Assembly (NCBI RefSeq): GCF_017349355.1
Contig: NZ_JAFMPM010000005.1
Span: 372,001-436,000, forward strand
DNA: 64,000 nucleotides
Direction of reading: 5' to 3'
From: Thiothrix fructosivorans
GTDB taxonomy: Bacteria; Pseudomonadota; Gammaproteobacteria; Thiotrichales; Thiotrichaceae
Position 1 is the stretch's first letter; each line of letters begins with the position of its first letter. Positions 33,133 through 46,889 of the stretch are shown here, piece by piece. The translations under genes and the position numbers were made by a program. The notes beneath the pieces were generated by a model. It saw only the letters and a list, made by a program, of their open reading frames with translations. It made no database searches and had not been told where the DNA came from.

Positions 33133-33465
33133 ATGGCACAGAAATTGGAATTGGCAGAAGTCATTAAGGCGTTGCGCGAGGAATTAAACCTTGCCAAGCG
33201 TGATGGAGAAGGGCAAGGCATTCGTTTTAACATCAACAATGTAGACATCGAACTGCAAACCGTGGTTGAACGTAAAGTGGATGCGGGTGTGTCTGGCAAA
33301 GTGCGTTTCTGGGTGATTGATGCGGATGCGAAAGCCAACGGTGAACTGAAAGATGCTGTGACCCAGAAAATCAAACTCAGTTTGCAGGTAGTCGATACGA
33401 CCAAAACGGCTGAAGAAATCGCAGCAACAGGTTCCAATGCGATGACAATCAACGATAAAGCCTGA
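33133..33465 (+). CDS. Trypco2-like small protein (trypsin-co-occurring domain 2)
   Basis: 110 residues. An N-terminal helix (LELAEVIKALREELNLAKRD) is followed by a beta-rich half (GIRFNINNVDIELQTVVERK, GKVRFWVIDADA, KIKLSLQVVDT), which matches the shape of the trypsin-co-occurring domain 2 family. These proteins are found next to trypsin-like proteases in predicted conflict systems and are thought to bind or regulate the protease. The next gene, 16 bases on, is exactly such a protease. First gene of the operon. Confidence 0.7.
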   Translation: MAQKLELAEVIKALREELNLAKRDGEGQGIRFNINNVDIELQTVVERKVDAGVSGKVRFWVIDADAKANGELKDAVTQKIKLSLQVVDTTKTAEEIAATGSNAMTINDKA

Positions 33466-33481
33466 CCAATGAGGGTGCATT

Positions 33482-34978
33482 ATGCTCAATGCCGATTGGT
33501 TGGTGCAAGTTTATGCACATCATAAAGATGACTACCCTTGTATTGGCACGGGGTATTCCATTGGAAATGGGTTAGTTCTGACTGCCCGTCATGTGGTGGT
33601 TTTTGATGAACGCGCCGCTGATCCTCGCTTAAGATTGTTATGGCCTGAGCAAAATAAACATGAGATGCCGTTTGCGGATGCGGATATTATGTTTGATGGG
33701 TTTGCTTGCGAGCCAAATATTGACGTTGCAGTTATCCGTTGCCCCCAAGCAACACCATTCAAACCACCTCAGATAGACTGGTTGCTTACTGATCTTGTGC
33801 CAACCACTGCGTGGGCAGGTCGTGGTTTTCCACGAGCAGCCAAAGAACCAACGATTCGCGATGATTTGGGCATGTCGGGCACAGTGGCAGGTTTGAAAAA
33901 GCATGTGGTCGAATTGGCAACCGATGTTGATGCGATAGAAGCCAATGGTTGGGCGGGCTTTTCAGGCTCTCCGGTGTTTATTGGTCAGCAATTGGCTGCG
34001 GTGATTACCCATGACTATTCATCGTTAGAAGGCTACTTCAAAGCTGTTTCAATTCCTTGGCTATTGCACAATGAAGAATTATTTCGTGAAATCGTCAAGC
34101 CTGCTAAGCAGGTAACAGCCCAATTGCACGCCAAGGTAAAAGCCGAAGCAACGCGCATTCTGGATGGGCAAGCGGTGCTGCGTGAGAAATTGAAAGTCGC
34201 CTTGAAGCTGGATTCCGGTGCTATGGCGACTGGTATCGCAGCGTACCTTGTTGAAAAGCAAGAGGTTGGTCAAGCCATTGGAGTACTCGCTCAAATCTCC
34301 TTGGAACTGGATAAGAAAAAGCCGGAATCACTCAAAGAGCGGTGGGAAGATTATTTAACCGATGTTGAGCAATTGTGCGGCTGGTTGTTGATCAATAGCG
34401 TTGATCCTGACTGGTGGCTTAAACACGAAGCAAGTTTGCAAAGTATTGCCCAAGATAGCGTTACCCGCAGTTTATCTTTGGATACACAAGCCTATGTGGA
34501 AGTCATCATTTCGCGCAGTTTATTACAGCAAGCCCGCTATGATCTTGATGAATACGGTGATCCCATACCCGCCAGCAGTATTCATGACCCGATGGTGTTT
34601 GATGGGCATACGGCGGGTGCATCCGATATTCAGATATTGAGTGAGATTTTTAAGCAATTGCGACGAGTCGACAGCGCACCGCAAGATGTTGATAGGCTTC
34701 TGGCTGATATACAAAAAACTGCCCGTGCCTTATCGAAACGCCAAGACAGTAAGCCGATCTATTACATCGTTTCTAATACTTATTTGGAGATGTTAAAGGA
34801 TTTGGCTTGTTACCCGAAGCTGAAAGAAAAATTAGCAGGATGTGTACAGTTCATCTGTTGTGTGCAAACGAGTCTTGATGAGTTGTCGCCTTGTCGTGAA
34901 GATCAAAGTTCGTTGCTGGAAGATCTAGCCGTTATACTCCGACTCAAGAACCCCAAGCGAGTAGCTGCCCATGTCTAA
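33482..34978 (+). CDS. Cytoplasmic trypsin-like serine protease, predicted conflict-system effector
   Basis: 498 residues with no signal peptide, so intracellular. Residues ~1-200 form a chymotrypsin-fold domain: VLTARHVVV gives His37, NIDVAVIR gives Asp81, and AGFSGSPVF gives the catalytic Ser161. The remaining ~300 residues are largely helical (KAEATRILDGQAVLREKLKV) and unassigned; they could be a sensor or adaptor region. The start is 16 bases after the Trypco2-like gene, and the end overlaps the AAA+ gene by eight bases. Inferred role: a protease unleashed on target recognition. Confidence 0.75.
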   Translation: MLNADWLVQVYAHHKDDYPCIGTGYSIGNGLVLTARHVVVFDERAADPRLRLLWPEQNKHEMPFADADIMFDGFACEPNIDVAVIRCPQATPFKPPQIDWLLTDLVPTTAWAGRGFPRAAKEPTIRDDLGMSGTVAGLKKHVVELATDVDAIEANGWAGFSGSPVFIGQQLAAVITHDYSSLEGYFKAVSIPWLLHNEELFREIVKPAKQVTAQLHAKVKAEATRILDGQAVLREKLKVALKLDSGAMATGIAAYLVEKQEVGQAIGVLAQISLELDKKKPESLKERWEDYLTDVEQLCGWLLINSVDPDWWLKHEASLQSIAQDSVTRSLSLDTQAYVEVIISRSLLQQARYDLDEYGDPIPASSIHDPMVFDGHTAGASDIQILSEIFKQLRRVDSAPQDVDRLLADIQKTARALSKRQDSKPIYYIVSNTYLEMLKDLACYPKLKEKLAGCVQFICCVQTSLDELSPCREDQSSLLEDLAVILRLKNPKRVAAHV

Positions 34979-36041
34979 ACAAGAAGTGCCGAAGCTCAAG
35001 GATTTTATCCCACCCAATTTTACCGTTTCCAATCTGGGGCGGAAGTTACACCACGTTTTCAACGAAGAGGATTGCTACGCACTGTGGGCGGCGTATTCCG
35101 CAGGGCGACCGTTGTTGGTCAGGGGAAAACCGGGGACGGGTAAGAGCCAGATGGCAAAGGCGATAGCCGAACAATTGGGCTGGGCGTTTGTTAGTGAAGT
35201 CATACACGGTAGTACCGAACTTAGCGATTTGCATTGCCACTTTGATGCGATAGGGCGTTTAGGTGAAGCGCAAGCACGTAGTATGGGTAACGATTCACCC
35301 CCAGCGTCAGGTTGCAGCGCGATCCAAGATCGGCTTAATCCGCTGAATTTCCTTTCGCCCGGTGTATTCTGGTGGGCTTATGATTGGCAGGCCGCCGCGC
35401 ATCAGTATAAAACCTGTTATACCCGCTTACGTCCTGAACCGTTAAAGCCCGACAGCACAACCTCGCAAGGTAAAACATGGCAGCCACAAATCGGCGGTGT
35501 TGTGTTGCTCTTGGATGAAATGGATAAAGCTGAGCCTGATTTGCCGAATGGTTTGCTGGAGACTTTGGGGCAGTACCGTTTCAGTGTTCCTTACCTGCAT
35601 GATACCCAGCAGGCGAACAGTGTATTGAATAACCCTGTACAGGCTGATCCTGTGCGGGTGCTGGTGGTGATTACCACGAATGAGGAGCGTGAATTGCCCT
35701 CTGCCTTCGTGCGCCGCTGTTTTGTACACACTTTGAAAATGGAAGAGTCCCCCGAAAAAATAACGGTGACATGGCATGATGAGACTGTTGAAAAACGCCA
35801 TGTGTGGTTAGTGGAACGCGGTAAATTGCATTTTGATAGCCGTATTGCGGATGCTGTCTATTTGCAGGCGGCTAAACAGCTATGGGCAGATAGGGAAGGG
35901 GATAGCCAAAACCGTTATCCACCGGGATTAGCGGAATACATCGACTTGCTGAGTGCACTGCAATCGTTGGATAAAGCAGAGCAGCAAACCCGGCTTGATA
36001 AAATAGCCCGTTATGCTCTGAAAAAAGAAGTGGACGGTTAA
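34971..36041 (+). CDS. MoxR-type AAA+ ATPase
   Basis: 356 residues. Walker A is RGKPGTGKSQ (residues ~51-60), Walker B VLLLDEMDKAEPD, sensor 1 VVITTNEERELP, and a candidate arginine finger FVRRCF, all as in the MoxR family. The N-terminal 45 residues include YALWAAYSAGRPLLV. MoxR ATPases act as chaperones on vWA-type partners; here the next gene, three bases on, is a plausible partner. Overlaps the protease gene by eight bases, implying coupled synthesis of effector and ATPase. Confidence 0.85.
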   Translation: MSKQEVPKLKDFIPPNFTVSNLGRKLHHVFNEEDCYALWAAYSAGRPLLVRGKPGTGKSQMAKAIAEQLGWAFVSEVIHGSTELSDLHCHFDAIGRLGEAQARSMGNDSPPASGCSAIQDRLNPLNFLSPGVFWWAYDWQAAAHQYKTCYTRLRPEPLKPDSTTSQGKTWQPQIGGVVLLLDEMDKAEPDLPNGLLETLGQYRFSVPYLHDTQQANSVLNNPVQADPVRVLVVITTNEERELPSAFVRRCFVHTLKMEESPEKITVTWHDETVEKRHVWLVERGKLHFDSRIADAVYLQAAKQLWADREGDSQNRYPPGLAEYIDLLSALQSLDKAEQQTRLDKIARYALKKEVDG

Positions 36042-36044
36042 ACA

Positions 36045-38939
36045 ATGGCATGGGGGCGGTTGGCACTGCTACAAGCGGCGGGAGAAGAGGATGCCAAGCT
36101 GCAAAAAATGGCGACTGTGTTTGGTTATGTCAAACAGTCTGCGCCAGAACCGCTTATCGTTGATGATGCCGATACCGCTTCACACCACACCACTTCAACA
36201 TTGATACCGTTTGAAACGACACCAGACGTAGCTATTTCACAACGCCCACCTGCCCGTTTTTTGCGGGTCAATAGAATCGCCCGTTTAACAGAGCCGGACA
36301 AACAAGCGTCGGACTATCTGCATGACCCCGCCATGCGTTTATTGCCTAATCCAAACAGCACGGATTCATACCATTTTGCACCGCCACCACCCTTATTGCC
36401 GCTCTCACGCCTTGTTCCCTTTTTGTTGAATAGCCTTGGGGTGTCTCGCACCAGCAAACGTTTGGATCAGCAACGACTGGCACGCCAAGTGGCATTGGGT
36501 AAAGCGTTGCAGCGTTTACCGCAGATGTCGCGCCAACATTGGGCGCAACGTTTGCATATTATTGTGGATGCAAGGCTGCATTTAGAACCGTATTGGGGCG
36601 ATTTTGCGCGTATCATCCAACAATTCAAGGCGTTGTTGGGTGAGGATGCTGTTGAAGCTATCCGTTTTGAGGATACGGCTTGGTCTGGGGAAATACCTGA
36701 TTGCATCCCGTGGCCGGGGCAGGCGGATGACGAGTGGCAACAGTGGCAACTCCCACCAGCGGATGTGCCAATTTTGGTCTTGGGGGATTTGGGGGTAACA
36801 GCCGATAATGTTAGTGCCAGTGCCAACTGGTCACGTTTGCTCAGGGTATTGCGCTCGCATCCCGCACCCCTGTTGACGCTCAGCCCCGTGATGCACTCCC
36901 CGCAGCAGCAGCGCTTGTGCCGTACTTTCAAACCGCATCCCCTCAATGATGCTTATCGGTTGCCACGCCACCCAAGGCCGAGTGGCTTTGCATTGACTTC
37001 AGATCAACCCGTTCCAATGGACGATATTTTGGCTTTATTGTCGTGCCTGCCGGTGGTCGATACGGGGTTGTTACGGCGTTTACGCCTTGCTTTGCATTGG
37101 GGGGGAAGTGAGCGGGAAGGTGAAGTTTGGAATCACCCTGATATTCGCCGGATTGGGTTGGGTATCCGTTTAGATGAGCGGGTGGCTGAACGTTATCGTC
37201 AAGTCTATCAACAGCGTTTTGCGGAATCGGCGCAAGCTGAAGCGTTGTGGCAGATTGTGCAAGCCCATCATGCCTCGGCTTATGAAGGATTACGGCAACT
37301 GGAAAAACTGAACCAGTGTGTGTTGGAACAGCGCGATGATGCCGCGTTACGGGATTATCTGCAACGCTTGTGTGCCACTGTTACCCAAGAGGGGCAAGGT
37401 TCGGCACGGCATAAAATCTTGGTGATGCAATGCCGCACTATTCTGGCTTCTAAACCAGAAAGCATTTGGAGTAGTGAGCATAATGAGCTGGCGTACCACT
37501 TGTTTGGGGTGGCTTACGCAGAAGAAATTCGGGCGGGTAAATGGCCTGAGCAATTGGAAAAAGGCTTTGATCCGGCACGATTGCAGTGGGTGCTGGATGC
37601 AACAGCGCGGGAGGAATGGGTTCAGTGGCAGGTAGTGCAAGTCGGTGATCAGGGACAATTTAAGCTACAACAAGCCGGTGATGGTGGTGAGGTATACGCG
37701 CCAATAACAACATTTGAAGCACTGAAACAATTTCCCCCTGCCATCGGTTTAGAAAACGCTGTTGTTGCTCAATCTGGCAGAGTCGTTGAGATGCCTGATA
37801 ATGGCACTGTTTCTATTCAATCAGCGCACAGCAGAATTGAGATTGAAGCCATTTCTAAACCTTCATGGGCGAGCAATCTTTGGCGTAATGTCAATGGGTT
37901 ATGGGCAGGGCTTGTTTGGTTAGGTAAAGAAGAATTTCAACATTGGTATTTTGCTGAATCTTTAGGTGTAGGAAATTGGGCGTTTGCGCGACCGTTTGGT
38001 TCTGACAGATACGGTTTGTATGTTGATTTAACCATAAACAGTATCACCCAACGCTTCCGCTGGATCGAACCCGGCACATTCCTCATGGGTTCACCCGAAT
38101 CCGAAGCAGACCGTGAACCGTGGACAAAAGGTAGTGAAACCCAACACCCAGTCACCCTAACCCAAGGCTTTTGGTTGGCAGATACCACCGTTACCCAGTC
38201 GCTATGGCAAGCGGTTATGGGTGAAAATCCCAGCAGCTTCACCGACAACCCCAATAACCCGGTAGAACAGGTAAGCTGGAATGACAGTCAGGAATTTATT
38301 AAAAAACTGAATAGCCTGCTTCCCGGCCTTCAGGCCAAACTCCCTACCGAAGCCCAGTGGGAATACGCTTGCCGTGCCGGAACCACCACCCCATTTTCGT
38401 TCGGCGATAACATTACCCCAGAACAAGTTAATTACGACGGAAATAATCCCTACGCAGGCGGTAAAAAAGGTCTATATAGAAAAAAGACCGTTCCCGTCAA
38501 ATCCCTCCCAGCCAACCCGTGGGGTTTGTATGAAATGCACGGCAACGTGTGGGAATGGTGTCAGGATGTGTGGCAAGAAAAATTACCGGCTTCGCCGGTT
38601 AAAGACCCGGAGGGTGTCGCCGGAGGCGACCAAGCAGGCGTTTTGCGCGTCGTTCGCGGCGGTTCGTGGAACGACAACGGCAGGGACGTGCGTTCTGCCA
38701 TCCGTGGCAGGAACGATCCCGCTTACCGTCACGACGACATAGGCTTCCGGCTTGCCCTAGGTCTTGAGCTACAGCCAGCCCAGCAGGGCGGTGGAGCCGC
38801 AAAACAAGAGGAGCGGACGGCGGGGACACAGACAGGCGCGAGCGGGACGCCGCGACAGGCTGGGTCAGCGCCGGGAGCGGTGGACAAAGCAGGAAAATTT
38901 ATCAAAGGATTGTTTGACAAGTTCAGGAAGAACACATGA
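36045..38939 (+). CDS. SAV_2336-like / FGE-domain protein, DGR target 1
   Basis: 964 residues. Residues ~110-370 resemble SAV_2336-type regions associated with MoxR ATPases (LHIIVDARLHLEPYWGDFAR, VPILVLGDLGV). A helical middle follows. Residues ~650-905 form a formylglycine-generating-enzyme/sulfatase-modifying domain with the C-type lectin fold (FRWIEPGTFLMGSPESEAD, LPTEAQWEYACRAGT, YEMHGNVWEWCQD, VVRGGSW, GFRLALG). DGR variable repeat 1 covers residues 863-906, just at the ligand-facing end of this fold. A Gly/Ala-rich tail ends in a basic helix (KFIKGLFDKFRK). Inferred role: the recognition subunit of the module, with specificity rewritten by the DGR. Confidence 0.8.
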   Translation: MAWGRLALLQAAGEEDAKLQKMATVFGYVKQSAPEPLIVDDADTASHHTTSTLIPFETTPDVAISQRPPARFLRVNRIARLTEPDKQASDYLHDPAMRLLPNPNSTDSYHFAPPPPLLPLSRLVPFLLNSLGVSRTSKRLDQQRLARQVALGKALQRLPQMSRQHWAQRLHIIVDARLHLEPYWGDFARIIQQFKALLGEDAVEAIRFEDTAWSGEIPDCIPWPGQADDEWQQWQLPPADVPILVLGDLGVTADNVSASANWSRLLRVLRSHPAPLLTLSPVMHSPQQQRLCRTFKPHPLNDAYRLPRHPRPSGFALTSDQPVPMDDILALLSCLPVVDTGLLRRLRLALHWGGSEREGEVWNHPDIRRIGLGIRLDERVAERYRQVYQQRFAESAQAEALWQIVQAHHASAYEGLRQLEKLNQCVLEQRDDAALRDYLQRLCATVTQEGQGSARHKILVMQCRTILASKPESIWSSEHNELAYHLFGVAYAEEIRAGKWPEQLEKGFDPARLQWVLDATAREEWVQWQVVQVGDQGQFKLQQAGDGGEVYAPITTFEALKQFPPAIGLENAVVAQSGRVVEMPDNGTVSIQSAHSRIEIEAISKPSWASNLWRNVNGLWAGLVWLGKEEFQHWYFAESLGVGNWAFARPFGSDRYGLYVDLTINSITQRFRWIEPGTFLMGSPESEADREPWTKGSETQHPVTLTQGFWLADTTVTQSLWQAVMGENPSSFTDNPNNPVEQVSWNDSQEFIKKLNSLLPGLQAKLPTEAQWEYACRAGTTTPFSFGDNITPEQVNYDGNNPYAGGKKGLYRKKTVPVKSLPANPWGLYEMHGNVWEWCQDVWQEKLPASPVKDPEGVAGGDQAGVLRVVRGGSWNDNGRDVRSAIRGRNDPAYRHDDIGFRLALGLELQPAQQGGGAAKQEERTAGTQTGASGTPRQAGSAPGAVDKAGKFIKGLFDKFRKNT
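38631..38760 (+). repeat. DGR variable repeat 1 (VR1)
   Basis: 130 nt aligning without gaps to TR (40445-40574). Hand alignment gives 11 differences, every one at a TR adenine: codon 1 A to C, codon 5 AAG to TTG, codons 15 and 19 AAC to GAC, codon 26 AAC to GGC, codon 32 AAC to TAC, codon 34 AAC to CAC, codons 35 and 36 AAC to GAC. The 3' end is unmutated and GC-rich (GGCTTCCGGCTTGCCCTAG), the expected initiation-of-homing region. Confidence 0.93.
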
Positions 38940-39442
38940 AACAAAAATTTTTCAGAATTCCGGTAGCCAACCCGGATGACACCGAGTCCGACCTCAACAC
39001 CTTCTGTGACCAGCACCGCGTTTCCAACGTCGACAAACAGTTTGTCGCGGATGCCGCCAACAGCTTCTGGGCAGTGTGCGTCACTTGGTCAGACAACGAA
39101 GGCTCCCTCGCAGGCAACACGTTCAAGCGCACCACCAACCCCAAAACCGGCAAGATCGACTACAAGGAAGTGCTGAACGACGACGATTTCATCGTGTTTT
39201 CGCGCCTGCGTGAATTGCGCAAAACCATCGCCGAGCGTGACGGCATCGCCGCCTACAACGTCTTCACCAATGAACAACTCGCAGCCATCGTGCAGCGCCG
39301 CATCAGCAGCAAAACCGCCTTGATGGAAGTGGATGGCATCGGGCAAACCCGCGCAGACAAGTACGGCGATGCCTTCATCGAATGCCTACAAACGCTTGTT
39401 GTGCCGAACCCCGCCGATGAAACGCACCCTGATCACCCTTGA
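38936..39442 (+). CDS. HRDC-domain accessory protein of the DGR
   Basis: 168 residues. Residues ~78-155 form an HRDC-type helical nucleic-acid-binding domain (FSRLRELRKTIAERDGIAAY, FTNEQLAAIVQRR, LMEVDGIGQTRADKYGDAFI). The N-terminal part (FFRIPVANPDDTESDLNTFC) resembles a small domain found with such accessory proteins. Many DGRs use an Avd or an HRDC protein together with the reverse transcriptase; here the ATG overlaps the target-gene stop by four bases, and the end overlaps the reverse transcriptase by 26 bases. Likely partner of the reverse transcriptase in template binding. Confidence 0.8.
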   Translation: MKQKFFRIPVANPDDTESDLNTFCDQHRVSNVDKQFVADAANSFWAVCVTWSDNEGSLAGNTFKRTTNPKTGKIDYKEVLNDDDFIVFSRLRELRKTIAERDGIAAYNVFTNEQLAAIVQRRISSKTALMEVDGIGQTRADKYGDAFIECLQTLVVPNPADETHPDHP

Positions 39443-40424
39443 AGCCATCGCCGAACGCAAAAATCTGGTGGAAGCCTTCCACAAAGCCGCCAAAGGCAAA
39501 CGCCACCGCCGCGACGTACAAGCCTTCCTGCAACACTTCGACACCAACCTCAACCGCCTCGGCGACGACATCCGAGCTGCCCGCCTGCCTTACGGCAAAT
39601 TCCGCGCCTTCCAAATCCACGACCCCAAAAAGCGTCTGATCCACGCCGCCTGCTTTGAAGACCGCATTTTCCACCACGCCTTGATGAACCTCGCAGGGGA
39701 AGTGCTGGAACGTGCGATGATGCCCACCAGTTACGCCTGCCGCCCGAATAGGGGCGTTCACAAAGCGGCAGTAAAAGTGCAGCAACACCTGCGCCAGTAT
39801 GCCTATTACGCCAAGATCGACATCAGCGGCTATTTCGCCGCCATCGACCATGACCGCCTGTTGCAAGTTCTGCTGCGCCGTTTCAAGGGGGCGGAATGCC
39901 AAGCCCAATTACAGCGCATCATCGCTAGCCACGCATCCACCCCACAATGCGGCTTGCCCATCGGTTCGCTGACCTCGCAATATTTCGCCAACTACTATCT
40001 GGACGGGCTGGATAGGCTGTTAGCAAGCCTGCCAGCGGTGCGGGCGCATATCCGTTACATGGATGACATCCTCTGGTGGTGCGACAGCAGGCAGGCGGTA
40101 ACGGCAACCCTGCAAACCGTCATCCGCTGGCTACAGCAAGAGCGCGGTTTGCAGGTCAAACCCAATGTGCAAATCCAACCCAGCAAACAGGGCGTGACTT
40201 ACTGCGGTTTTCGCATCCTGCAAGGCACAATCCGCCTCAGCCGTCGGCGCAAACGCCGCTACCAGCAACGGCGGCAATACTGGGAACAGCTTTACCTGAA
40301 CGGCATGATCGACGCCAACCAGCTACAGCTTGCCCATGCCGCTGTGCAAGCCATCGCCGCCGGAACGGATAGCCTCGCATGGCGGCAGGAAAACTTGCGC
40401 CGTCATCCGCCTCTATCGCTATAA
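39417..40424 (+). CDS. Diversity-generating retroelement reverse transcriptase
   Basis: 335 residues from the ATG at 39417; the longer open frame upstream is inside the HRDC gene and lacks similarity. Seen: motif A-type [16 protein letters not shown] with the first catalytic Asp (135), the DGR-typical [16 protein letters not shown] at ~180-194, and the catalytic RYMDDILWW (YMDD at 214-217). The basic C-terminus ([14 protein letters not shown]) fits the thumb. It copies the TR transcript with errors at adenines and installs the cDNA in VR. All catalytic residues are intact, so the element may be active. Confidence 0.92.
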
Positions 40425-40444
40425 TCAGGCTGGGTGACAGATCG

Positions 40445-40574
40445 AAAGCAGGCGTTAAGCGCGTCGTTCGCGGCGGTTCGTGGAACAACAACGGCAGGAA
40501 CGTGCGTTCTGCCATCCGTAACAGGAACGATCCCGCTAACCGTAACAACAACATAGGCTTCCGGCTTGCCCTAG
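40445..40574 (+). repeat. DGR template repeat (TR)
   Basis: 130 nt starting 20 bases after the reverse transcriptase stop. In the VR reading frame it contains ten AAC codons plus AAA and AAG, so adenine mutation can vary about 12 residues. Mutating the A positions of AAC can never create a stop codon. It reads [18 protein letters not shown] and onward, but no protein is expected from it. Similarity to both VRs ends sharply after CCCTAG. Confidence 0.93.
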
Positions 40575-40717
40575 CTCAACACGCCGTTGGAATGGGCGTG
40601 AAAGACCAGATCGTCATCCCGCCTTGCGGGCAACCGTAAGCAAAAAGCAAGGTCAGCGGTGCGCTAGTAATGGGGTGGATGCCCCGTGAACGCCCATCGC
40701 ATGACCGTTTTAACCAT

Positions 40718-40784
40718 GTAGGGGCAGACCCCCGTGTCTGCCCTTTCCCCGACCAAGAGGGCAGACACAGGGGTCTGCCCCTAC
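40718..40784. repeat. 27-bp inverted repeat upstream of DGR target 2
   Basis: Left arm 40718-40744 beginning GTAGGGGCAGACCCC and right arm 40758-40784 ending GGGGTCTGCCCCTAC are reverse complements with one mismatch, around a 13-nt loop. Probably a mobile palindrome of the REP/MITE kind; it would fold strongly in RNA and may separate the DGR operon from target 2. Confidence 0.8.
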
Positions 40785-40799
40785 GAAAGAATAGATGTT

Positions 40800-41597
40800 A
40801 TGACCCGTAACCACCTCTCCCCACCCACCTTCCCCTACGCTTGGGCATCCGACTGGGGCGAAGACCGCTACGGCCTGTGGCAAGCCTTCACCTACAAAGA
40901 CGTGCGCCACGCCTTCCGCTGGATACAGCCAGGCAAATTTGACATGGGTTCACCCGAAACCGAAGAAGGTCGCGATAACGATGAAGACTTACACCACGTT
41001 ACCCTAAAACAAGGTTTCTGGCTCGCTGAAACCACTGTCACTCAAGCCCTGTGGGAAGCCGTCACGGGAGGCGAGAACTCTAGCCACTTCAAAGGCAAAA
41101 ACCGCCCAGTCGAAAAAGTAAGCTGGCACGACATCCAAACTTTCCTCACCCAACTCAACCAGCTTCACCCCGATTTAAACGCCCGTCTACCATGGGAAGC
41201 CGAATGGGAATATGCCTGCCGTGCCGGAACCCAAACTCCGTTCCACTTTGGCGGCAAGGATGATTTGAGTCTGGAAAGAGTGAACTATTCGGGTGAGTGG
41301 GATAAGTGGAGTGACAAGGGCGAAACCAAGGAAGTTAAAACCTACCCCTGCAATGCTTGGGGCTTATACGAAATGCACGGTAACGTCTGGGAATGGTGTC
41401 AGGATGTATGGCAAGAAAAATTACCGGCTTCGCCGGTTATAGACCCGGAGGGTATCGCCGGAGGCGATAAGGCGGGCGTTTTGCGCGTCGTTCGCGGCGG
41501 TTCGTGGGCCGCCACGGCAGGAGCGTGCGTTCTGCCTTCCGTGGCAGGGGCGATCCCGCTTACCGTGACTACGACATGGGCTTCCGGCTTGCCCTAG
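40800..41597 (+). CDS. Free-standing FGE-domain protein, DGR target 2, frameshifted in its variable repeat
   Basis: 265 residues as read. It starts at the ATG at 40800 after a weak GAAAGA. The whole protein is an FGE-sulfatase/C-type lectin domain: FRWIQPGKFDMGSPETEEGR, WLAETTVTQALWEAVTGG, LPWEAEWEYACRAGTQ, YEMHGNVWEWCQD, VVRGGSW. At residue ~239, inside VR2, one base of a TR-derived AAC codon is missing. The frame then ends at the TAG at 41595-41597 as an unrelated tail. Restoring the base would continue with VRSAFRGRGDPAYR, GFRLALGLELQPAQQGG and stop at 41668. So it is either a recently inactivated target or a sequencing artefact. The downstream DNA still resembles the tail of target 1. Confidence 0.75.
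   Translation: MTRNHLSPPTFPYAWASDWGEDRYGLWQAFTYKDVRHAFRWIQPGKFDMGSPETEEGRDNDEDLHHVTLKQGFWLAETTVTQALWEAVTGGENSSHFKGKNRPVEKVSWHDIQTFLTQLNQLHPDLNARLPWEAEWEYACRAGTQTPFHFGGKDDLSLERVNYSGEWDKWSDKGETKEVKTYPCNAWGLYEMHGNVWEWCQDVWQEKLPASPVIDPEGIAGGDKAGVLRVVRGGSWAATAGACVLPSVAGAIPLTVTTTWASGLP
41469..41597 (+). repeat. DGR variable repeat 2 (VR2), with a one-base deletion
   Basis: 129 nt against the 130-nt TR. Hand alignment gives 19 substitutions, all at TR adenines (for example AAC to GCC twice, AAC to GGC twice, ATC to TTC, ATA to ATG), plus loss of one base in the third AAC of the AAC run (41514-41515). The 3' 19 bases match TR and VR1 exactly. Confidence 0.92.
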
Positions 41598-41745
41598 GTC
41601 TTGAGCTACAGCCAGCCCAGCAGGGCGGCGGAGCCGCAGGGCGCGGTGCGCCCCAAGCGAAGAAGTAAGCGCACGGCTCTGACGCGGGCAGGCGTGGCGG
41701 GACGCCGCGACAGACCGTGACAGTGCCGGGAGCGGGCAATGCTCT

Positions 41746-41927
41746 TGTAGGTCGGGCTTCAGCCCGACAATTGGTATGGATGCGTATGGTATGGATAAGG
41801 GATGTCGGGCTGAAGCCCGACCTACGGGGTGGATGCCGTTGTAGGTTGGGCTTCAGCCCGACATCTTCAAAAATGCGGCATGATTAACAATGCACGATTG
41901 TGATTGTCGGGCTGAAGCCCGACCTAC
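41746..41927. repeat. Cluster of four REP palindromes left of the RAYT gene
   Basis: Units of the form TGTAGGTCGGGCTTCAGCCC and onward, alternating in orientation: 41746-41770 (plus), 41803-41825 (minus), 41840-41863 (plus), 41905-41927 (minus). Each has an internal GTCGGGCT/AGCCCGAC stem. Between the first two lies one full copy and one partial copy of the 15-bp unit expanded on the other side of the RAYT gene. Confidence 0.85.
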
Positions 41928-41936
41928 GTGTGGTTG

Positions 41937-42386
41937 CTAGCACCAAATGGAGTCCCAATGTGGGTAATCTCCAATATGCTTTACCAACCCTGCACGCAAT
42001 GGATTCGCAACGATGTAACGGGCAATTTGAAGACCGTCATCTTCTGTACGCAAAGCACGATCAAAAAAGCCGGGTTGCCAGAAACGACCTGCATGGTTGA
42101 GATGCTGATCCAACTGTCGGGCAGTGCCGCCTTTTAGACGACGCATGGTTTCGGATAACCCCGTATTACCTTCCAGCCGTAACAAGGCATGAAAGTGGTC
42201 GGGCATTACTACCCATGCCAGCCATTTTACGTTGAGTTCCCGTTCAAGTTTTGGCAAATGGCTCACCAGCATCCGCGCTGCTGTAAAATCTTCAAATACA
42301 GGGTAACGTTCATGCACTACCGTTGTGACGAAATATTCTTGTGATGGCGAGCTATAGCGGCCTTTACGTAATTCGTTGTAACTCAA
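41937..42386 (-). CDS. REP-associated tyrosine transposase (RAYT)
   Basis: 149 residues, complete. It is a Y1-type HUH nuclease of the IS200/IS605-related RAYT group. WVVMPDHFHALLRL carries the His-x-His metal site, and ARYIVANPLRAGLV carries the catalytic Tyr. FWQPGFFDRALR is also typical. RAYTs are domesticated single-strand transposases that act on flanking REP palindromes; such palindromes lie on both sides here (41746-41927, 42437-42627). Likely responsible for spreading the TGTAGGTCGGGCTTCAG units in this genome. Confidence 0.92.
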   Translation of the reverse strand: MSYNELRKGRYSSPSQEYFVTTVVHERYPVFEDFTAARMLVSHLPKLERELNVKWLAWVVMPDHFHALLRLEGNTGLSETMRRLKGGTARQLDQHLNHAGRFWQPGFFDRALRTEDDGLQIARYIVANPLRAGLVKHIGDYPHWDSIWC

Positions 42387-42436
42387 ACTGATTTTTCTGC
42401 TAGTAGAACCAATCGCAAAATCCTACCCGATTCTCT

Positions 42437-42627
42437 TGTAGGTCGGACTTTAGTCCGACAATTGGTATGGATGCGTATGGTATGGATGCGTATGGTATGG
42501 ATGCGTATGGTATGGATGCGTATGGTATGGATGCGTATGGTATGGATAAGGGATGTCGGGCTGAAGCCCGACCTACGGGAGGGGGAGGTATGTGGCGTAT
42601 GTTGTAGGTCGGGCTTCAGCCCGACAT
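42437..42627. repeat. Cluster of three REP palindromes right of the RAYT gene
   Basis: Units at 42437-42461 (plus, a variant with compensatory changes GTCGGACTTTAGTCCGAC), 42554-42576 (minus) and 42603-42627 (plus). The compensatory pair of changes keeps the stem intact, which shows that the fold is what matters. Confidence 0.85.
42464..42538 (+). repeat. 15-bp tandem repeat (minisatellite), five copies plus a partial copy
   Basis: GGTATGGATGCGTAT repeated exactly five times (42464-42538), then GGTATGGATAAGG. The corresponding place in the left REP cluster (from 41773) has only one copy plus the same partial end. Confidence 0.95.
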
Positions 42628-42707
42628 TTCTCAAAATAATGCATAGTGGTGAAACTACCTTGATCTAGGTATAGTTAAGTCTAATAAAAAAATCCAAAGG
42701 CACTGCC

Positions 42708-45700
42708 ATGTTACCTTTTCTGCGCCTCTTATCCCTCTGGCTATTCCTGCTCACCGCAGCATACGCCAACCCCTTGCCCACCGATCAAGTCCCCGAACCC
42801 CTCAAACCGTGGGTAGGCTGGGTACTCGATGGTCACAAAGACCTAGCCTGCCCCTACCTCTACAACGCCGAAGAGCGTCAATGCGCTTGGCCGGGGCGCT
42901 TAGATTTGCAACTCACCGCCACAGGCGGCACGTTTACCCAACACTGGGAAGTCTACGGTGAAACCCAACTTCGCCTCCCCGGTGATGCGCAACATTGGCC
43001 GCAAAACGTCCACCGTGCCGACAACACCCCGCTCGTCGTCACCACGCAAGACGGCTACCCCAGCATCACCCTCGCCGCAGGCAGCCACGACATCAGCGGG
43101 CAATTCGTCTGGGACAAACTCCCCGAAGCCCTGTTCGTCGCACCCGCCACGGGTTTGGTGCAATTAAGCGTCAACGGCACAGTCATCGCCACCCCCGAAT
43201 TCAACGCCGCTGGCAGCTTATGGTTAAGCCGTTCCCCGCAAGCCGCCAGCGAAGACGGTCTAGAAGTGCAAGTTTTCCGCAAAGTGCTCGATTCACACCC
43301 GCTCGAAGTCACCACCACCATCCAGCTCCGTGTCGCAGGCAAGCAACGTCAAGCCGAACTTGCCCCCGTCTTGCTGGACAGTTTCATCCCGCTGCACCTC
43401 GACAGCCCGCTGCCCACGCGCATGGGTCAAGACGGCAAGCTGCAAGTGCAACTGCGCCCCGGCGAATGGACGCTGAAACTCACTGGACGCGCTCCCGCCA
43501 CTATCACCGCCTTAACGTTGCCTGCCAGCGCCGCGCCGTGGCCTAGCGAAGAAGTCTGGGTATTTGAAGCTGATGCCACCATGCGCCAAGTGCAAGTCGA
43601 AGGCGTGAATAGCGTTGACCCCAGCCAAACGCGCTTGCCGGAAGAATGGGCAAGCCTGCCCGCTTACCTCATGACCACTGACAGCAAAATGACCTTGGCA
43701 GAACAACATCGCGGCATGGCAGACAGCCCCGCACAACTCAGCTTGAGCCGCCAACTCTGGCTGGATTTCGACGGTAACGGCTACACCCTGCAAGACAATC
43801 TCTCCGGCACATTAGCGCAACAATCCCGCTTGGAAGTGTCGCCCGACATACGTTTGGGTCGCGTCAGCATCGGCGGTCAGCCGCAACTGATCACGCAACA
43901 AACAGAAGGCACAGCGGATGGTGTGGAAGTACGTCAACGTACCCTCAACCTCGAAGCCGACAGTCGTTACACCGCTGCACGTTCCAGCCCGCCCGTGAGC
44001 GGTTGGCAGCAAGAATTGCAGCAAGTCACCACCACCTTGCACCTGCCGCCCGGTTGGTTGCTGTTTGCCGCGAGTGGCACGGATAACTTACCGCTGACAT
44101 GGTTGCAACAATGGAGCTTGCTGGATTTGTTTCTGGTGCTGTTGATCACTGTGGCAACGGGGTATTTGTACGGCTGGCAATGGGGTGCGGTCGCCGGTGT
44201 CGCCTTGCTATTAACGTGGCATCAAAGTGACGCGCCGCAATTTATCTGGCTGAATTTGCTGGTAGTCACTGCATTGTTGCGCTCAATTCCGACGGGGGCG
44301 ATGCAACGTTGGTTGGCGCGTTACCGCTGGCTGAGTTTGCTGGTGCTGGTGTTGATCGTATTGCCGTACACCATCGACACGGTACGCAATGCGCTGTATC
44401 CGCAATTGCAAGGCAACGGCGGGCATGTTGGTTTTGAACAAACGGCGGTAGCGGCTAAACCTGCCGCCCCAGAAGCAGCGATGGATATGATGGCTGAACA
44501 AGCCGCGCCTGCTGCCGAAGCCCCTATGCCTGTGCCTGCTCCCGCCCCGATGATGAAATCAAGCGGCAATTATATTGAAGATAAAGCCGGTGGTGCAGAC
44601 AGTAGCCTAGCCGCACTCGGTTCTTATGCATCGTCGCGCAATGCCAAGCAGCAAGCCAATTTGCGCGAAATCGACCCCAATAGCATGATCCAAACCGGCC
44701 CCGGCTTACCGACGTGGAACTGGCAGCAAGTCTCCTTGCAATGGTCGGGCGTGATTCAGCCGGATGAACGCATGGGGCTGTGGTTGATTGCGCCGCTGGT
44801 GCATTCCTTGCTGAAAGTGCTGGGTGTGTTGGTGCTGCTGGTGTTAGCCGCCCGTTTAGCTTTGCCCGCAGGCAAATTCGCAGCGGTATTGCAAGCTGCT
44901 CGCCATCCACAGCAGTGGTTGCATACGGCACTACTGCTGGTTGTTGTGCCGTGGGTGTTAGCATTGCCGCAACCTGCGTTCGCGGAAACACCGCCGCCGC
45001 CGGATGCCGCATTGTTGCAAACGCTTGAGGAACGCTTGTTACGTGCGCCGGACTGTTTGCCCGACTGTGCGCAAATCGAGCAGATGAACCTGACGCTGGG
45101 GAATGAAGGTTTAACGATTCGCCTGCGTATCCATGCCGCGACGGCGCTGGCTGTGCCTGTGCCGAGCAGCCAAAGTACGTGGTTGCCGCAAACCGTGTTG
45201 GTTGATAATGCCCCCACGCAAGCCTTGCGCCGCGATGCCGAACAGCAATTGTGGGTGGTATTAGCGCAAGGGGCGCACGACGTGGTATTGCAAGGCAGCT
45301 TGCCTACCCGCAACAGCCTTGCATTGCCGTTGCCTTTGAAACCGCGTCACGTCACATGGAGCGGGGAAGGCTGGCAAGTAGACGGTATCCGCGACAACGG
45401 TGTGCCCGAAGAACAGTTGCAACTGAATCGCACCACGACGGCAGCGTCGGATGCTACTTTGCAAGACATGCCCACCTTGCCCGCGTTTGTGAAAATCGAA
45501 CGGCGCTTGGATTTGGGGCTGGATTGGTATGTCACCACCACGATCCGCCGTGTGTCGGACAGCGCTGCGCCGATCAGTTTGGCGATTCCTTTGCTCAAGG
45601 GCGAACAGCCGCTGAGTGAGCAATTCACCATCAAAGACAATGCGCTGCAAATCAATCTCAAGCCACAGCAAGCCAGCGTGGAATGGACATCGCGTTTGCC

Positions 45701-46889
45701 ACAAACCGACACCTTCACCCTCACTGCCAGCAATAACAGCGCGTGGTTGGAAGAATGGCGCGTGGCGGCAAGCCCCGTGTGGCACGTTGTTGCGACCGGT
45801 TTGCCAGTGAATGCTTACGAAGAAGCCGATGCGCAAGGCACATTGCTGTGGAAACCGTGGGCAGGTGAAACCTTGACGCTGGCGGTCAACCGTCCGCAAG
45901 GGGTGGCAGGGCAGACCGTGACCTTGCTCGCCAGCCAAATGCAGGTGGACGTGGGCAAACGCGCTCGTGATGTGACCTTGCGGTTGAATTTGCACAGCAG
46001 CCGTGGTTCGCAACACAGCATCCGTTTGCCGGAAGGCACGGTATTGCAAAGCCTCACCATTGATGGCACGAAGCAAGCGATTCAACAACAGCAAAACACG
46101 GTGCTGTTGCCGCTCTTGCCCAAAAAACAGGAAGCCGTGTTGGAATGGCAGGAAGCAGGCGCGTTACCGTTGCATTATACGTTCCCTGCGGTGGATTTGG
46201 GTTTACCGAGTGTGAATGCTGAAGCCCATTTAACCGTGCCGCAAGACCGTTGGGTATTGTGGGCGCACGGGCCGTTGTTAGGGCCTGCGGTGTTGTTCTG
46301 GGGCGTGTTGGTGGTGCTGCTGGTCTTGGCGGTTTTGCTGGGGCGTTCGGGGATTACGCCGTTGAAAAGCTGGCAGTGGTTCTTGCTGGGAGTCGGTTTG
46401 AGCCAAAGTTCCTCGCTGTTGATGGTGCTGATGGCGTTCTGGCTGATAGCACTGGCGCTGCGTGGCAAGTTGGCGGTGGAAACTTGGCAACGTCCGCGTT
46501 GGCAGTTTAATGCGATGCAAGGTGGCTTGGCGTTTTTGACGCTGATTGCCTTGGCAACCTTAATCGGGGCAGTGGCAAAAGGCTTGCTAGGTTCGCCGGA
46601 TATGCAAATCGTCGGCAATGGCTCGTGGGGTCAGCAATTGCAATGGTATCAAGACCGAGTGGCAGGCGAATTGCCGCAACCGGGGGCGATCAGTGTGCCG
46701 ATTTGGTATTACCGCTTGCTGATGTTGGCGTGGGCATTGTGGCTGGCAATGGCATTGCTGGGCTGGTTGCGCTGGGGGTGGACTGCCATCAACCACGGCG
46801 GGCTGTGGCAGTCGCAGCCGTCACACGACCCGATGCGCGACAAACTTACTGAGGTTGTCGAGCACGTCGCCACCCCGCCGGAAGCCTAA
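42708..46889 (+). CDS. Very large membrane protein of unknown function
   Basis: 1393 residues. A signal peptide (LRLLSLWLFLLTAAYA) is followed by a ~450-residue beta-rich periplasmic region. A cluster of membrane segments around 470-560 comes next, then a Pro/Ala/Met-rich stretch (EAAMDMMAEQAAPAAEAPMP) at ~590-610, another membrane segment near 710, a second signal-like segment near 750, a second beta-rich region to ~1170, and four or more membrane segments at the C-terminus. I do not recognise the family. The overall symmetry suggests an internal duplication or fusion. The 3' end overlaps the convergent glutathionylspermidine-synthase-like gene by 69 bases. Confidence 0.8.
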   Translation: MLPFLRLLSLWLFLLTAAYANPLPTDQVPEPLKPWVGWVLDGHKDLACPYLYNAEERQCAWPGRLDLQLTATGGTFTQHWEVYGETQLRLPGDAQHWPQNVHRADNTPLVVTTQDGYPSITLAAGSHDISGQFVWDKLPEALFVAPATGLVQLSVNGTVIATPEFNAAGSLWLSRSPQAASEDGLEVQVFRKVLDSHPLEVTTTIQLRVAGKQRQAELAPVLLDSFIPLHLDSPLPTRMGQDGKLQVQLRPGEWTLKLTGRAPATITALTLPASAAPWPSEEVWVFEADATMRQVQVEGVNSVDPSQTRLPEEWASLPAYLMTTDSKMTLAEQHRGMADSPAQLSLSRQLWLDFDGNGYTLQDNLSGTLAQQSRLEVSPDIRLGRVSIGGQPQLITQQTEGTADGVEVRQRTLNLEADSRYTAARSSPPVSGWQQELQQVTTTLHLPPGWLLFAASGTDNLPLTWLQQWSLLDLFLVLLITVATGYLYGWQWGAVAGVALLLTWHQSDAPQFIWLNLLVVTALLRSIPTGAMQRWLARYRWLSLLVLVLIVLPYTIDTVRNALYPQLQGNGGHVGFEQTAVAAKPAAPEAAMDMMAEQAAPAAEAPMPVPAPAPMMKSSGNYIEDKAGGADSSLAALGSYASSRNAKQQANLREIDPNSMIQTGPGLPTWNWQQVSLQWSGVIQPDERMGLWLIAPLVHSLLKVLGVLVLLVLAARLALPAGKFAAVLQAARHPQQWLHTALLLVVVPWVLALPQPAFAETPPPPDAALLQTLEERLLRAPDCLPDCAQIEQMNLTLGNEGLTIRLRIHAATALAVPVPSSQSTWLPQTVLVDNAPTQALRRDAEQQLWVVLAQGAHDVVLQGSLPTRNSLALPLPLKPRHVTWSGEGWQVDGIRDNGVPEEQLQLNRTTTAASDATLQDMPTLPAFVKIERRLDLGLDWYVTTTIRRVSDSAAPISLAIPLLKGEQPLSEQFTIKDNALQINLKPQQASVEWTSRLPQTDTFTLTASNNSAWLEEWRVAASPVWHVVATGLPVNAYEEADAQGTLLWKPWAGETLTLAVNRPQGVAGQTVTLLASQMQVDVGKRARDVTLRLNLHSSRGSQHSIRLPEGTVLQSLTIDGTKQAIQQQQNTVLLPLLPKKQEAVLEWQEAGALPLHYTFPAVDLGLPSVNAEAHLTVPQDRWVLWAHGPLLGPAVLFWGVLVVLLVLAVLLGRSGITPLKSWQWFLLGVGLSQSSSLLMVLMAFWLIALALRGKLAVETWQRPRWQFNAMQGGLAFLTLIALATLIGAVAKGLLGSPDMQIVGNGSWGQQLQWYQDRVAGELPQPGAISVPIWYYRLLMLAWALWLAMALLGWLRWGWTAINHGGLWQSQPSHDPMRDKLTEVVEHVATPPEA

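Follow-up and report, generated by a model that had tools for sequence, protein, structure and literature searches.

What does the reverse transcriptase (RT) gene on contig NZ_JAFMPM010000005.1 of Thiothrix fructosivorans rewrite, by what means, and to what end? We analyzed 64,000 nucleotides of this contig (hereafter the window) and found a complete, chromosomal diversity-generating retroelement (DGR) of the HRDC type, whose genes and repeats in the window lie on the forward strand. An earlier note on this DNA had described a first variable repeat (VR1), an HRDC gene, an RT gene with YMDD, a template repeat (TR), and a second FGE gene with VR2; this order and its coordinates were borne out, as was the reading as a complete DGR with FGE/C-type-lectin targets, by the TR/VR pattern, the grouping of the RT, and the FGE matches. 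The range assigned to it, 38631–41597, holds the core and leaves outside both the upstream genes and a third VR on another contig. We regard as sound the conclusion that this is a DGR of published type with one broken target and one target previously unlisted.

The TR (40446–40577) begins 21 bases past the RT gene and contains ten AAC codons in the VR frame. VR1 (38632–38763) differs from it at 10 of 32 adenine sites and 1 of 100 other sites (Fisher 1.9e-6), and VR2 (41469–41600) at 18 of 29 adenines and 1 of 100 other sites, with one gap in addition (Fisher 1.35e-13). Pooling VR1, VR2, and the third repeat, VR3, gives change at 47/91 adenines versus 4/300 non-adenine sites (Fisher 1.9e-30). 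The constant non-adenine difference is one 3′-boundary base, C in the TR (CTAGCTC) and G in the VRs (CTAGGTC here); the G is present in all seven VRs aligned (two each from the window, genome G005, and genome G002, plus VR3). Apart from this base and the VR2 gap, VR1 and VR2 match the TR at every non-adenine site, so that the repeats differ almost only at TR adenines. Randomizing the 15 adenine-bearing codons of the TR core yields about 4e14 protein variants and never a stop.

The same pattern recurs in relatives. A search of genome contigs gave 16 related loci, including those of Ca. Thiothrix singaporensis (same contig as G005), Thiothrix sp. STA_22 (G002), Nitrosomonas sp. Nm51, and T. eikelboomii. 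We surveyed adenine specificity in the window and 14 of these loci (L050 and L051 excluded), with one genome per species as the sample for VR comparison, and removed two rows, L045 VR2 (a chance 30-base alignment) and L052 (cut by a contig end). Change is adenine-specific in all 25 usable VRs (p 1.3e-5 to 3.3e-14), with up to 7 non-adenine changes per VR.

The RT (39420–40424, with an alternative start at 39333; PF00078, E 2.1e-20) has an intact catalytic motif, YMDD (codons 40056–40067), and an IGSLTSQ motif. In the PDB its closest match is 8ub7, 'Reverse transcriptase' (E 9.5e-42; the next is at 3.8e-11), which we take to be the BPP-1 DGR enzyme, and it is 32.5% identical to BPP-1 brt. In a tree of 17 RTs, from which one row (a wrong open reading frame [ORF]) was removed, 14 DGR-type RTs form one group (96/92), from which three RTs of this genome with a QG...SP motif are separated. 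The earlier note had named failure to group with DGR enzymes as grounds for dropping the claim; the RT groups with those of the BPP-1, Nostoc, and Prosthecochloris DGRs. The accessory protein, where Avd, HRDC, or MSL might be expected, is an HRDC-domain protein (38936–39442; PF00570, E 1.4e-16) whose gene overlaps both the long target and the RT gene, and HRDC lies immediately before the RT at 15/16 related loci.

Two targets flank this core. The long target (36045–38939; 964 amino acids) consists of an N-terminal region of ~640 residues, an FGE domain containing VR1 (PF03781, E 1.4e-47, residues 673–904), and a tail of nearly 60 residues behind VR1. The short target (40800–41597; ORF-finder start 40734) is FGE only. 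The best PDB sequence relative of the FGE domain is a Treponema denticola DGR variable protein, 2y3c, and by sequence (PF03781 and 2y3c) the VR lies in the C-terminal part of an FGE fold. VR2 is one base shorter than both the TR and VR1 (the missing base lies at about 41508–41514), and because of this deletion the short target leaves its frame inside VR2 and stops at 41597, the usual FGE ending being found in another frame. The proposal that the extreme C terminus is rewritten in both targets is therefore not upheld, given the tail behind VR1 and the frameshift in VR2. That two targets for one TR is a distinctive arrangement is likewise not supported: both targets occur at 10/16 related loci, and the long and short pair is published (PMC10907252). 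The second-target VR is in frame at 10/10 related loci where it was read, and the short targets of G004, G006, and G015 are also in frame. Short inverted repeats with a GGA loop follow VR1 by 24 bp (38788–38800) and also lie after VR2 (41625–41637); the first is a candidate homing hairpin. Neither is significant alone, and comparison of VR-flank hairpins with shuffles mostly gave no significance.

A search of the whole genome with the TR returned six matches. Besides the TR itself, VR1, and VR2, these are two weak matches and a strong one on contig C6. The match on C6, VR3, is changed at 19/30 adenines and 2/100 non-adenine sites and lies in frame at the end of a 391-residue TIR-FGE protein (TIR_2, E 8.2e-18; FGE, E 2.2e-45); in the domain list, the closest RT domain on C6 is >140 kb away. 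Among 13 genomes of the genus searched, full-length relatives of this protein are found in G002, G003, G007, and G015; the relative in G005 is interrupted. Contig C5 carries a second complete DGR with its own RT and a NACHT-FGE target (TR versus VR: 19/31 adenines and 3/94 other sites changed). We note that on that strand of the second DGR (L029 8371–12861, G000:C5) there is no ORF of at least 120 amino acids between target and RT, and thus no HRDC or Avd was seen there. A low-scoring match at C5:255373, considered as a target of the window's TR, belongs to the TR of this second DGR. Elsewhere on C5 (139–147k; L030 625–5536) there is a MoxR-type ATPase with long and short FGE genes bearing VR-like ends, with no RT or TR between or beside them; these ends (C5:143286 and about C5:144419) were rejected as targets, differing from the window's TR at about 20% or more of non-adenine sites.

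How is the template presented to the RT? Alignments of the TR surroundings from the window and its relatives (15, then 16 sequences) contain a conserved, spacer-like structured RNA element downstream of the TR (40603–40710 in the window). RNAalifold predicts a helix that pairs the TR 5′ flank with this element (in the window, GGGUGAC to GUCAUCC), together with a hairpin and a longer stem that contains an inner one; the strands of the helix, which closes the TR into a loop, lie at 40432–40443 and 40609–40619. We scored these helices together with four pairs prolonging the first, omitting the pairs that RNAalifold placed inside the TR. Both sides have changed in 27/37 pairs, and the covariation score is 0.586, compared with at most 0.194 in slid controls and 0.250 ± 0.018 in shuffles, 0/500 of which reach 0.586. 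The four added pairs are the weakest, three of them being unpaired in 6/16 rows.

Because the structure was derived from these same sequences, tests on held-out loci matter. A covariance model, R1, was built from the downstream part alone, so that the closing helix is not in the model. R1 matched the held-out loci L065, L087, L085, and L088 (E 2.6e-18 to 6.4e-9); a weak match in L086 (E 0.018), farther from the RT than the others and with no closing helix at the usual distance, was not counted, and with filters on there was no match in L089, L090, or L091. With filters off, R1 matched downstream of the RT in L091 (1e-4), L051 (0.003), and a Nostoc plasmid DGR (5.5e-7), weakly in a Prosthecochloris DGR (E 0.57), and not at that place in L089, L090, the BPP-1 spacer, or the second DGR of this genome; given these last four, the element is not universal among DGRs. 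Within Thiothrix it is present in 8/16 genomes, namely all seven with an RT match and G015, which has none. Across 398 genomes of the phylum, with stricter filters, R1 gave six matches, its own and five in one other genus, each of the five directly following a TR- or VR-type repeat. An RT lies beside three of these (L110, L113, and L112, the last cut by a contig end); none was seen beside L109 or L111, the latter covered for 1,500 bases upstream. L111 (21–330) has a TR-like repeat with its AAC codons kept, a closing helix, and the RNA element.

The closing helix was assessed separately at 10 loci outside the training set, excluding L109, L086, and L065 (the last with a partial TR). With a locus's own element the longest helix averages 9.5 pairs, versus 6.8 with those of others, and 0/2000 permutations are as high; for the 16 training loci the values are 9.0 and 7.4, again with 0/2000. 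When three held-out loci were each compared with random windows from within the locus, the values were 0.005, 0.025, and 0.049. Taken singly, the helices of L112 (6 pairs) and of L091 and L110 (7 each) are unconvincing. BPP-1 may have a closing helix of 8 pairs. No Rfam family scores above its gathering score around the TR; MIR/mir matches within 38500–42700 were all below theirs and were set aside. Taken together, we lean toward the view that cellular DGRs share a TR loop with conserved stems behind it, closed by a helix (mostly of 7–13 pairs) that the 5′ flank forms with the spacer; that this fold, rather than the RT alone, defines the element; that its range extends to one cyanobacterial DGR and, weakly, to an alphaproteobacterial one; and that it persists as a scar after the core, with its RT, has been lost, as in the VR/TR hybrid repeat of L109. 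We found no title or abstract on such a fold in the literature on DGR spacers, covariation, and RNA structure, a limited claim with subscription journals mostly outside its scope, and we think that this covarying fold around the TR is the new part of the present work and the one most worth following.

Several related loci show what happens when the core is damaged. The G002 RT (L032 8503–9291) has an in-frame internal deletion of about 98 residues that includes YMDD, with TR, HRDC, and both targets remaining; its VRs have 4 and 7 non-adenine differences. The G004 RT closest to that of the window is truncated and runs into a partial TR. At the syntenic place in G004 and G006, where upstream genes are alike at 93% over 3.6 kb and the flanking ORFs are presumably guaB and guaA, MoxR and long and short targets with in-frame, differing VRs are present, and a DUF559 gene replaces HRDC, RT, and TR (the DUF559 scan covered G004 only). 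The two VRs of L064 in G006 each fit a different TR best, the short one that of the window (5/100 non-adenine differences) and the long one that of G002 (5/101). G015, at a different place, has long, short, and TIR targets matching the window's TR at 99, 99, and 98 of 100 non-adenine sites; neither an RT (at E 1e-20) nor a further copy of the TR was matched in it, and it retains 23 TR-like bases (21 identical) with the RNA element after them. In G004, G006, and G015 alike, the short target is immediately preceded by a DUF559-type gene. L109 (1380–1610) lacks the intervening RT: its VR-like core continues without a break into a TR-type boundary and the RNA element, a product we would expect of recombination between VR1 and TR, judging from this one case.

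Upstream of the long target lie a Trypco2 (trypsin-co-occurring) gene (33133–33465; PF19631, E 2e-21), a trypsin-like protease gene whose product is a candidate effector (33482–34978; PF13365 Trypsin_2, E 2.3e-7), and a gene for a MoxR-like AAA ATPase, a candidate signal relay (34971–36041; PF07728 AAA_5, E 2.7e-9; 8-base overlap with its neighbor), its name taken from the layout in PMC10907252. From Trypco2 through the long target and HRDC to the RT, genes on one strand are separated by at most 16 bases or overlap, and they are probably cotranscribed. A MoxR match is found at 6/16 related loci, several contigs being too short. No NCBIfam match reached its cut-off; the top PADLOC matches are to models of RTs (E 6e-40 for the general one) and to DpdF over the HRDC domain (E 3e-14), and the remaining non-RT matches are partial and mostly weak.

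Other features adjoin the element. A long palindrome (40718–40784) lies between the RNA element and the short target. Beyond the DGR is a Y1 (IS200-like) transposase gene (41937–42386; PF01797), flanked near 41740–41930 and 42438–42630 by repeated palindromes, seen by eye, of the type GTAGGTCGGGCTTCAGCCCGAC; we take this to be a REP/RAYT-like arrangement. A short tandem repeat of about 15 bases (ggatgcgtatggtat), also seen by eye, occupies 42460–42548, and a 1393-amino-acid ORF (42708–46889) has no Pfam match and has relatives adjoining the locus in G004 and G006.

We consider it likely that the locus is an HRDC-type DGR within a MoxR/trypsin conflict-type operon, in which a TR-loop RNA is copied mutagenically into three targets whose products signal as sensors. 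The 5′ flank of the TR RNA would pair with the downstream spacer, holding the TR as a loop that conserved stems follow. The RT would copy this RNA with errors opposite adenines, the HRDC protein probably taking the part of BPP-1 Avd, and the cDNA would replace the 3′ part of FGE genes that share the non-adenine bases of the TR, namely VR1, VR2, and, in trans, VR3. With their rewritten FGE loops as the ligand-binding face, the sensors may relay a signal by way of MoxR to the trypsin-like protease, or signal directly via TIR. In VR2, the one-base loss could be erased by a later round of homing, since the TR is intact. On gene content, a diversified sensor of a conflict system, probably serving to recognize invaders that change, is the most likely function, and a defensive role and present-day activity of the DGR are both plausible. 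Several observations weigh against this interpretation. The genome is a single snapshot; the VR2 of the short target is broken in this assembly; and VR3 departs from the TR at one non-adenine site beyond the boundary base. Loci of this kind often decay, with the RT or the whole core lost or damaged in G002, G004, G006, and G015. HRDC stands where BPP-1 has Avd, the search for Avd having been confined to the locus. The N-terminal part of the long target has no convincing Pfam match (14 members scanned), and a vWA test was negative by both Pfam and hhalign: the segment VLILSDLG, which to us resembled a vWA motif by eye, did not lead to confirmation of a degenerate vWA domain, the hhalign score of 12.5 comparing with up to 14.6 in 40 column shuffles (against only 3 vWA sequences). 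A PDB search with A6 gave no match (best E 0.2).

Ordinary paralog divergence as the source of the VR/TR differences would fit the conservation of FGE ends among paralogs; but the concentration of change at adenines in 25/25 usable VRs, beside a DGR-type RT, already contradicts this, and we give it next to no credence. A recently silenced DGR, whose VRs are past products and whose homing is over, is harder to dismiss, with VR2 out of frame and decay common across the genus (an RT without YMDD in G002, a truncated one in G004, and in-frame differing targets without a core in G006 and G015). However, RT, TR, HRDC, and RNA element are all intact here, and VR1 and VR2 still agree with the TR at non-adenine sites save for the boundary base and the VR2 gap, while the one locus with a broken RT, G002, shows 4 and 7 such differences, a single case; we consider a relic unlikely. 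The VR2 loss itself might be a sequencing or assembly error, leaving the short target intact, since only one base is affected, within a G/C-rich run, the ORF is otherwise open, and comparable second targets are in frame in all 10 cases. Indels in VRs are nonetheless possible, because 3-base, in-frame gaps are found in G002 VR1 and in the G003 TIR target, and we hold an error to be a real possibility that falls somewhat short of even.

The function invites a further alternative, that the diversified FGE proteins are receptors for kin or surface recognition or for adhesion rather than defense sensors. Thiothrix is a genus of filamentous sulfur bacteria, and the partial, mostly weak character of the non-RT PADLOC matches would suit such a role. 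Against it, the trans target bears a TIR domain, a NACHT-FGE protein is the target of the genome's second DGR, and the Trypco2, trypsin, and MoxR neighbors are known from predicted conflict systems, as described in PMC7159879 and PMC10907252. We therefore think recognition or adhesion improbable and prefer a conflict-system sensor. If that is correct, Thiothrix joins the bacteria that diversify probable immune-type sensors, and the genus offers a natural comparison of the cassette present, broken, and absent, two of these at one syntenic locus. The RNA fold makes testable what besides the TR is read in the template RNA by an HRDC-type DGR, and as a search model it could find DGRs and scars that lack an RT. 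The frameshifted VR2 lends itself to a simple test: in nature, does homing restore a target that is broken?

No paper in the literature searched combines 'diversity-generating retroelement' with 'Thiothrix'; besides the sources named here we drew on parts of PMC10053308 and PMC3240598. The ternary conflict systems with a VMAP domain (Kaur et al. 2020, PMC7159879) likewise have a MoxR ATPase, a trypsin with Trypco2, and an FGS/FGE target with a DGR. Here, the MoxR ATPase was recognized by its AAA_5 match and position; no vWA protein was found (14 members by Pfam; by hhalign, 3 vWA sequences did not score above column shuffles), and no VMAP domain, the trypsin protein matching Trypsin_2 only (Pfam). 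The Bordetella phage BPP-1 DGR has a homologous RT and, according to PMC12875486, a structured spacer RNA after the TR that primes cDNA, with adenine priming and recovery of missing target bases; it differs in having Avd instead of HRDC, its TR before the RT, a tail-protein target, and a spacer unmatched by R1. An HRDC accessory gene has been reported in T. denticola DGRs (PMC4891356), where it overlaps the RT gene and the target (TvpA, PDB 2y3c) is of the FGE-type C-type-lectin class; in contrast to our locus, most of the targets in T. denticola are lipoproteins, and the accessory gene is placed between TR and RT. The DGR of Prosthecochloris aestuarii plasmid pPAES01 (NC_011061; L101) has the same FGE–HRDC–RT–FGE order and differs in carrying an annotated Avd in addition to HRDC and in its weak R1 match. 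Judged by layout, our locus follows the published RT clade 5A (Doré et al. 2024, PMC10907252), in which the long and short target pair is common and DGR targets are proposed, as yet without test, to be antigen sensors; the paper's main text does not contain the word 'HRDC'. As described there, DGR 8 of Thiohalocapsa PB-PSB1 has MoxR directly upstream of a long target whose N-terminal extension lacks a known domain, a short CLec-only target, and Trypco and trypsin neighbors, and that genome, like this one, has several DGRs and trans targets. From these clade 5A DGRs, the Thiothrix locus differs in its frameshifted short target, its TIR-FGE target in trans, and a described RNA fold.

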